Origin: a virus
Reading direction: 5' to 3' (one strand)
IMG/VR virus record: IMGVR_UViG_3300012920_000362
Location: 1 to 20,563 of that record
DNA: 20,563 nucleotides
Shown: piece by piece, positions 18,491-19,736 of the stretch
Position numbering within the stretch: position 1 is the stretch's first letter
Layout of the letters: every line of letters starts with the position of its first letter
Translations under genes and position numbers: made by a program
Notes under the pieces: generated by a model
Seen by the model: only the letters and a program-made list of their open reading frames with translations
The model's database searches: none
Told to the model about the DNA's origin: nothing

Positions 18491-18822
18491 ACTATCTCCT
18501 TTCTCCCTTCTATTACTAAATCAATGTTGCGCCGGATCATTTCGGCTGATTGGTTTGGCGCTAACGCATCCAAGAACAACTCCAAGCCGCCATTGTGGAT
18601 GAATAAATATGCCGTGCGAATCTCTGTTCTATCACATCCTAGCATTGTGTTTGGCTTGAGCGTGAACTGGCCCTGCGACTTGGCTACAGCTCTTTCATTT
18701 ATGTAGCCTTCAGCGTCAATAAATCCACGCATACGAGCTACAACGTAGTCCTTGCATGCTTGGCCAATAACTGCCGCTAACAGGCGCTCAGTAGGCTGTT
18801 CATAAATCAGAGCGTTATCCAT
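18481..18822 (-). CDS. unknown 113-aa protein
   Basis: The start is taken at ATG 18822 with GAAGGA about 9 bases upstream; a TTG at 18843 would add seven residues. It overlaps the preceding gene by 16 nt. Residues 8-45 are helical with small residues (TERLLAAVIGQACKDYVVAR). The second half contains AYLFIHNGGLELFLDALAPN and an amphipathic end helix (SAEMIRRNIDLVIEGRKEI). The mix resembles conserved small phage proteins of unknown function. No catalytic motif or membrane span is seen. It lies within the replication gene cluster. Confidence 0.75.
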   Translation of the reverse strand: MDNALIYEQPTERLLAAVIGQACKDYVVARMRGFIDAEGYINERAVAKSQGQFTLKPNTMLGCDRTEIRTAYLFIHNGGLELFLDALAPNQSAEMIRRNIDLVIEGRKEIVWK

Positions 18823-19268
18823 GTGGCCAATTCCTTCGGGCAATAATAAGCTTTGTAGGTATGGCCGCGCCTAGTGTCAGTGCAATCCTTCCTGAGCCAA
18901 CGATCCTTGGTCATTCGCACATCAATGATAGCCGCATGAGACATTGGTCCGTTCACTATGAAATAATAACGAGGCTCTACTGCTTGACCGTCAAATGACT
19001 TACAGTTGCACACGATTAATTCATCAAACGGGAATGTCTGCACACAAGTGAAGTCAGCCCGTGGATTGTGCTTTACCTCAGTCCGCATATGCATGAATAA
19101 ATCACCGCCATCCTTGTAACGATCTGGATCTCCACCGGGGGGAACCATGACGCTTGGATTAACAGAGCAGGGTACTCCTGCCTTGTTTATATATTTAGCC
19201 ACTTCCCACTTTGCTGCCTCACTGGCATTCAATCGCTCACTAAAATCAGTTCTGTAATTTTCGTTCAT
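18807..19268 (-). CDS. PD-(D/E)XK nuclease-like protein, 153 aa
   Basis: ATG at 19268, with AAGGAG touching the start codon (spacing zero), which is unusual and may weaken translation. Residues 14-30 form a helix (ASEAAKWEVAKYINKAG). Then comes KDGGDLFMHM with D56 and a strand ending EVKH (E64, K66), the D...E-x-K spacing of restriction-endonuclease-fold nucleases. The second half has FPFDELIVCNCKSFDG and YYFIVNGPMSHAAIIDV, plausible beta strands of that core. Three cysteines (74, 87, 89) are extra. The call rests on motif spacing, so nuclease activity is inferred. The preceding sequence is the structured RNA at 19278-19363. Confidence 0.6.
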   Translation of the reverse strand: MNENYRTDFSERLNASEAAKWEVAKYINKAGVPCSVNPSVMVPPGGDPDRYKDGGDLFMHMRTEVKHNPRADFTCVQTFPFDELIVCNCKSFDGQAVEPRYYFIVNGPMSHAAIIDVRMTKDRWLRKDCTDTRRGHTYKAYYCPKELATWITL

Positions 19269-19277
19269 CTCCTTAAC

Positions 19278-19363
19278 AAAAAAAATGGCAGCGCAGAGTG
19301 TTCACTATGAGGCAACATCGTCCTCGTCCAGAGCTCTCCTCTGGCTCTATTCTCTGCACTGCC
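19278..19363 (-). terminator. terminator-like structured RNA with three helices
   Basis: On the minus-strand transcript the outer stem pairs 12 bases (arms 19352-19363 and 19287-19298) with one G-U wobble. The plus-strand RNA would have an A-C mismatch at that place, so pairing favours minus-strand RNA. Inside the 53-base loop lie CCAGAG/CTCTGG (19328-19333 with 19339-19344) and a small GAGG/CCTC helix. Eight Us follow the outer stem. It separates the Hjc-like gene from the next gene, whose ribosome binding site starts four bases later. A plain terminator would not need the inner helices, so a structured small RNA or attenuator is also possible. Confidence 0.6.
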
Positions 19364-19374
19364 AACCCTTAACA

Positions 19375-19385: not shown

Positions 19386-19394
19386 AAAAGGTGT

Positions 19395-19736
19395 TTAACA
19401 CCCGGTACGCTGATAAGCCAGCTTCACTAGCTTAATCCAATCTTCAGCAAGCATGCAGACCACCCAAGGCTTGTGATCCTTGTGCGCTGCGACAACTGGC
19501 AGTTCCTCCGAACCTTTGTCTTCCATTGCTTGCTCAAGTGCTTTCCAGATATTAATAGCTTTACCAGATTTCACTTCAAAGTGGATATCAATTAGCTCAG
19601 GACATATTACATCCGGGCTATCCTCAGTCCCCTTGAACTGCTGGCCGCGCCGAGCATCCTTGAATCCTGCCGCCTTCAGCAGCTTCACCCAATCCAGCTC
19701 ATTGCGTTTGCCTTTTCGCTTACTATTAACCGGCAT
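19395..19736 (-). CDS. Hjc-like Holliday-junction resolvase/PD-(D/E)XK nuclease
   Basis: 113 residues from ATG 19736, overlapping the exonuclease gene by 11 nt. The N-terminus is basic (KRKGKRNELDWVKLL), with E13 placed as the first acidic residue. Then GTEDSPDVICPELIDIHFEV supplies D42 and, with the next residues, E54-x-K56, the catalytic signature of the PD-(D/E)XK fold. A helix (IWKALEQAMEDKG) and the strand PVVAAHKDHKPWVVCML follow, as in small phage and archaeal Holliday-junction resolvases. It would resolve branched DNA before packaging. A general endonuclease of the same fold is the alternative. Coupling to the 3'-5' exonuclease supports a role in replication or recombination. Confidence 0.75.
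   Translation of the reverse strand: MPVNSKRKGKRNELDWVKLLKAAGFKDARRGQQFKGTEDSPDVICPELIDIHFEVKSGKAINIWKALEQAMEDKGSEELPVVAAHKDHKPWVVCMLAEDWIKLVKLAYQRTGC

Follow-up and report, generated by a model that had tools for sequence, protein, structure and literature searches.

The put RNA of phage HK022 is made of two stem-loops and occurs in a few lambdoid phages, and the pRNA of phi29 is a single-copy phage RNA with a three-way junction. HK022 put RNA is a cis-acting antiterminator (PMC9378689), the manA and wcaG motifs are structured marine-phage RNAs that were found by comparison and are linked to metabolic genes (PMC2864571), and ribozymes are enriched near Mu-like phages (PMC10085705). Here we describe an RNA in the window, that is, the whole stretch of viral DNA analysed (20,563 nucleotides, positions 1 to 20,563 of IMG/VR virus record IMGVR_UViG_3300012920_000362), which is almost certainly one copy of a phage-borne family of sense-strand RNAs with a three-way junction. 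It has P1, a J1/2 strand matching [CA]AURGWG, a P2 of 6 bp, a GAGAN loop, AC, P3, and a J3/1 strand with AACA. Like put it is phage-encoded, would act folded and from the sense strand, and is present at about one element per operon, but put has two adjacent stem-loops with no junction and a known role in antitermination, whereas the RNA reported here has a three-way junction and is found in very diverse phages. With hammerhead and other small self-cleaving ribozymes it shares its size, a three-stem junction, about 20 near-invariant bases, scattered phage contexts, and tandem copies; the hammerhead core blocks CUGANGA, GAAA, and UH are absent, the consensus being [CA]AURGWG / AC / ..RAACA (93 members), there is no Rfam match, and some copies lie in frame in essential genes. 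The purine, TPP, and c-di-GMP-I riboswitches also have covarying stems around an invariant junction and a GNRA-type loop, yet they share no sequence core with it, and where a riboswitch is expected in the 5' leaders of coherent genes together with an expression platform, we found incoherent contexts, no consistent downstream gene, in-frame copies, and no general platform. The phi29 pRNA resembles it as a single-copy phage RNA with a three-way junction but differs in sequence and size, and phages that carry the new RNA include ones with large terminases, some with the copy within the terminase gene itself. The manA and wcaG motifs are in Rfam and the new RNA is not: Rfam 15 gave no match over the element, whether for the window, for 12 member loci at E up to 1 and 5, or for whole phage stretches. 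A search of open-access papers found no description either. With no Rfam 15 model and no description in the literature searched, the family was previously uncatalogued.

The element occupies positions 19286-19364 of the minus strand, as judged from model matches and folding, in the order P1-J1/2-P2-J2/3-P3-J3/1-P1'. Two covariance models match it, R1 at 19284-19365 with 78 bits and R2 with 65.6 bits and an E-value of 1.2e-14; E-values of the models built in this analysis are rough. The 5' strand of P1 (UGGCAGUGCAGAG, 19352-19364) pairs with its 3' strand (CUCUGCGCUGCCA, 19286-19298); 12 bp, including one U.G, are formed by GGCAGTGCAGAG (19363-19352) and CTCTGCGCTGCC (19298-19287), and the pair U19364-A19286 lengthens the stem to 13 bp. 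P1 encloses a loop of 53 nt (19351-19299), which begins with the J1/2 core AAUAGAG (19345-19351). It is followed by the 6-bp P2, CCAGAG (19344-19339) with CUCUGG (19333-19328), closed by the GNRA-type pentaloop GAGAG (19338-19334), by the invariant J2/3 dinucleotide AC (19326-19327), by the 4-bp P3 (GAGG at 19325-19322 with CCUC at 19312-19309, both strands placed by folding), and by J3/1 (AUAGUGAACA, 19299-19308), which contains the invariant AACA. A tract of eight U residues (19278-19285) comes immediately 3' of P1 and makes P1 terminator-like in this clade. The first-pass annotation had listed the 12-bp outer stem with one G-U pair, the two inner helices, the 53-nt loop, and the U8 tract, and all of them can be read directly on the minus strand. 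The minimum free energy of this strand is -39.4 kcal/mol (z -4.3; 0 of 200 dinucleotide shuffles as good), and in a longer context the pair probabilities are 0.98-1.0 for P1, P2, and P3, with 0.48 and 0.92 for the two outermost P1 pairs. The plus strand likewise folds well (-33.7, z -5.2), so that folding alone cannot fix the strand.

The RNA lies between two minus-strand genes. The upstream gene (19395-19736) encodes a RusA-like Holliday junction resolvase (phrog_244, E 1.1e-16). The downstream gene (18807-19268) encodes a 153-aa protein, g153, which is conserved in the clade with 54-60% identical homologues in relatives and for which a Pfam and PHROG search detected no family. The description of the locus as flanked by two nuclease genes is thus correct for the upstream gene, and the label "nuclease-like" for the downstream one finds no match in Pfam or PHROG. 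The ribosome binding site said to be pressed against the ATG at 19268 is present as AAGGAG (19274-19269) with zero spacer; a spacer is present in the relatives L006-L008, and the true start of the 153-aa gene, or the way in which it is translated, may be unusual. A second small hairpin, GGGUGUUAAACACCU followed by UUUUGG (19389-19403, minus strand), overlaps the rusA stop codon and resembles a weak terminator about 25 nt ahead of the RNA.

Relatives were found by a viral-contig search with the primase-helicase, which gave eight contigs. L006, L007, and L008 (primase about 70% identical) have the same three-helix RNA between their rusA and g153 homologues, and the 5' flank UUAAGGGUUG (19363-19372 in the window, minus strand) is common to these three; L002 has UAAGGGUUG. 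In L002/L003 (primase 73%) and L005 (71%) the RNA directly follows rusA, with added sequence containing small open frames between the RNA and g153. Relatives whose primase is about 40% identical (L014 and others like it) gave no copy. In a structure-blind MAFFT alignment of the six close relatives, 97.7% of the stem cells pair and 18 of the 22 pairs change on both sides, with a covariation score of 0.915 against 0.08-0.17 for slid-partner controls. The P1 letters are nearly free in this group, and the joining strands and the GAGAN loop are constrained.

The same pattern holds in a wider alignment of 93 members. It was made with a covariance model and fitted to the structure, and hence leans towards it, which the MAFFT alignment does not; in it 96.4% of the stem cells pair, double changes occur in 21 of the 22 pairs, and the covariation score reaches 0.814, with shuffled controls at 0.182. 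Hundreds of paired substitutions across the family preserve the helices: each of the 13 P1 pairs has changed on both sides with compensation, covariation extends over both strands of P1 and P2, the P2 cells are 99.6% paired with five of six pairs doubly changed, and P3 varies across the family in length and loop. Arms that vary without compensation in related genomes would have reduced the element to a chance or ordinary hairpin; both arms do vary, with compensatory changes among the relatives and the 93 members alike. The suggestion that this may be a structured RNA with a three-way junction, and not only a terminator, is therefore strongly supported by compensatory changes in 18 of 22 pairs (relatives) and 21 of 22 (93 members). 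In the P1 and P2 stems of the 93 members there are 80 G.U/U.G and 14 A.C/C.A combinations. This excess of G.U/U.G settles that the functional strand is the minus strand in the window. The earlier claim that the stem works only in minus-strand RNA is right about the strand on these counts, and folding alone would not prove it in view of the plus-strand fold. A DNA-level element such as an origin or a recombination site was considered and is unlikely, as the stems keep G.U on one strand.

The stems covary freely around a core of about 20 near-invariant nucleotides. Positions A19, U20, G22, G24, C36, A42, C43, and A109-A110-C111-A112 (A5 columns) are 100% conserved in the 93 members, as are the G, A, and A of the pentaloop, whose third position is G in 98%. 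The family loop is of the GNRA type; copies with a GAAAG loop fold correctly but are rare, one and the same strict pattern giving 4 stretches with GAAAG and at least 99 with GAGAN. There are two main subtypes, CAUGGUG with GAAACA and AAUAGAG with UGAACA, the window having the latter J1/2. Mixtures are few, so J1/2 and the 3' part of J3/1 are coupled, and these two strands probably touch each other in the folded RNA.

Many further copies are present in IMG/VR and in bacterial genomes. The IMG/VR pattern consisted of the core only (AC, GGAGANC, AACAC, and AURGNG at fixed spacings), with no P1 pairs and none of the five outer P2 pairs, the sole P2 pair demanded being the loop-closing one. It gave at least 120 matches, against about 13 expected by chance on a rough estimate. 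About 118 of 120 among the matches listed were judged genuine, with the six P2 pairs complete or almost so, and a P1 of 4-16 bp is present in most of those listed. The contigs are metagenomic and the abundance is a lower bound. A stricter pattern run on 84,980 bacterial and archaeal genomes found 14 stretches, of which 13 are genuine, in Verrucomicrobia (four), Nocardia, Planctomycetaceae, Myxococcales, Fimbriimonas, and others, mostly metagenome-assembled. A phage record usually carries one copy and sometimes two, in tandem or at separate sites and occasionally on opposite strands, and bacterial genomes seldom carry any. An origin in host chromosomes was rejected, the RNA being present in only 2 of 388 Verrucomicrobia genomes. 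One annotated phage genome, the fosmid-derived Ayaqvirus AP013544.1, has a copy directly 5' of its RNA polymerase gene (E 3.4e-5, rough as above). Blastn with six sequence variants found no near-identical copies in deposited phages or plasmids, and isolates whose RNA polymerase or primase genes are related had no copy in the regions examined.

Several individual loci deserve mention. Tandem pairs were seen in L118, L131, L166, L192, and L276/L279, and one of the copies in L131 has no recognisable P3 and a GAAAA loop. The cultured bacterium Geminisphaera colitermitum TAV2 (L226) has two copies on different contigs, one of them adjoining prophage-type RecT and DUF2800 genes. In a Verrucomicrobia assembly (L234:7000-7092, plus strand) a copy is some 0.4 kb away from smpB and may mark a prophage at a tmRNA-type site. 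A look-alike three-stem element downstream of an exonuclease gene (L059:6346-6409, plus strand; also L060 and L062-L065) is laid out in the same way, with GGGG/CCCC ends that do not vary and with UUGAACG, and comes near the next ATG, where no Shine-Dalgarno sequence is obvious. It is possibly a distant cousin; R2 gives no match to it and its covariation is thin.

The neighbours of the RNA are mostly replication and recombination genes, yet the families to which they belong are many and unrelated. Upstream are several RusA families, SSB, exonuclease, and integrase; downstream are helicases, T7/N4-type RNA polymerase, and DNA polymerase. Where a T7-like RNA polymerase gene adjoins, the RNA is just 5' of it, and 30 of the 94 copies with a co-directional upstream gene start within 0-7 nt of its stop codon. 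In seven contigs the RNA is in frame near the middle of the terminase large-subunit gene (L112:5985-6065, minus strand; also L136, L142, L159, L165, L196, and L204), and in L112 terminase homology extends on both sides of it. Another in-frame copy (L225:968-1044, plus strand) separates the N-terminal DNA-binding domain of a Mu-type transposase from the catalytic part, both of which are recognised. L136 and L204 differ by compensated P2 pair swaps that alter amino acids. This suggests that the RNA is selected over the peptide there, and in these two terminase copies selection appears to act on the RNA. A U-run follows 28 of 124 copies (23%; random windows give 5%) and is absent after every in-frame terminase copy. 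The feature of an intrinsic terminator, a stable stem and then a U-run, is thus present in the window and in those 28 of 124 family copies, and the tail is U-rich in all close relatives (L002, L005-L008) as in the window. With a U-run in only 23% of copies, the function common to the family is not termination, which may come in addition in the window and its clade.

Incoherent contexts, in-frame copies, and sparse U-runs together leave a portable RNA domain with a conserved partner that recognises it, and this is our leading reading of the mechanism, with a probability of roughly 0.4. The RNA would be a self-contained, position-independent, non-cleaving recognition RNA, in which the junction and the GAGA loop would form a binding surface for the conserved partner. 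A candidate partner is a host or phage protein, for example RNA polymerase or an RNA-binding factor. The RNA might act in trans or on whichever mRNA carries it, so that any transcript position would suit, and neither cutting nor ending the RNA would be required for its action. In the window and its close relatives, P1 and the U-rich tail would probably also serve as a (partial) intrinsic terminator, by which the RNA would end at a defined point between rusA and the gene that follows. Three observations speak against a portable recognised domain: the position just 5' of T7-like RNA polymerase genes could mean gene-specific control, tandem copies (L118, L131, L166, L192) are typical also of riboswitches and self-cleaving ribozymes, and the core is as conserved as expected of a ligand pocket or a catalytic centre.

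A catalytic centre is what the junction core would be in a self-cleaving ribozyme of a new class that cuts phage transcripts, a reading we consider unlikely. The size of about 80 nt, the multi-stem junction, the core of about 20 near-invariant nt, and the heavy covariation would suit a ribozyme, as would the scattered gene contexts, the tandem copies, and the one copy in a Mu transposase gene; these features resemble the selection criteria for new ribozymes that were tested (PMC10085705). The core motifs are unlike those of the hammerhead, no Rfam ribozyme model matches, and copies with the full core are in frame in terminase and Mu-transposase ORFs, where cleavage would destroy the message. 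Self-cleavage is therefore hard to accept, although translation could hold the RNA open.

An improbable alternative of similar standing is a ligand- or protein-responsive attenuator, in which the bound core would stabilise P1, and P1 with the U-run would end transcription before the next gene, as a riboswitch does. The P1-U8 arrangement of the window, the U-rich tails in six of six clade members, the enrichment of U-runs (23% against 5%), the tandem copies, and the many downstream genes of replication or nucleotide metabolism are consistent with it. Three quarters of the copies have no U-run, though, the family has no shared downstream gene, some copies are in frame, and P1 is often 7-16 bp long and very stable with no obvious competing structure. 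The proposal that the RNA is an attenuator of the downstream nuclease gene does not carry over to the family: control of a single gene is not general, since downstream genes differ wholly and the RNA can sit in a coding frame. The other roles put forward in the first-pass annotation, an RNase III processing site and a stable small RNA, are conjectural.

Slightly more doubtful is a nascent-RNA antiterminator like HK022 put, which would bind the elongating RNA polymerase and carry it through phage operons. The RNA is phage-borne and on the sense strand, a record has one copy or two (in some cases on opposite strands), and a put-like role would fit positions inside ORFs. On simple longest-ORF gene calls, which make these placements rough, it is near a divergent operon start in G041 and G011 but not consistently promoter-proximal, being mid-operon in G001, about 6 kb in in G036, and far inside in G025. 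It also has a three-way junction instead of the two stem-loops of put, and in the window the U8 tract comes at once after P1. An ordinary intrinsic terminator with an unusually large loop, to which the GC-rich stem of 12-13 bp followed by U8 would point, is rejected for the family, as distant phages conserve the loop helices and the letters of the junction but not those of P1, the U-run is absent from most members, and members lie inside ORFs.

It is rare for a compact RNA to covary this heavily, to occur so widely among phages, and to be missing from the standard RNA library. On balance we favour, with some reserve, a new functional class of small phage RNA, shared by unrelated tailed phages of several bacterial phyla, whose core binds a conserved host factor (e.g., RNA polymerase) or is catalytic. 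The consensus is sufficient for direct in vitro work. Its conservation in such dissimilar phages and hosts points to a target common to all, and the partner or the chemistry, once found, could bring to light a general means by which phages deal with host transcription, RNA turnover, or defence.
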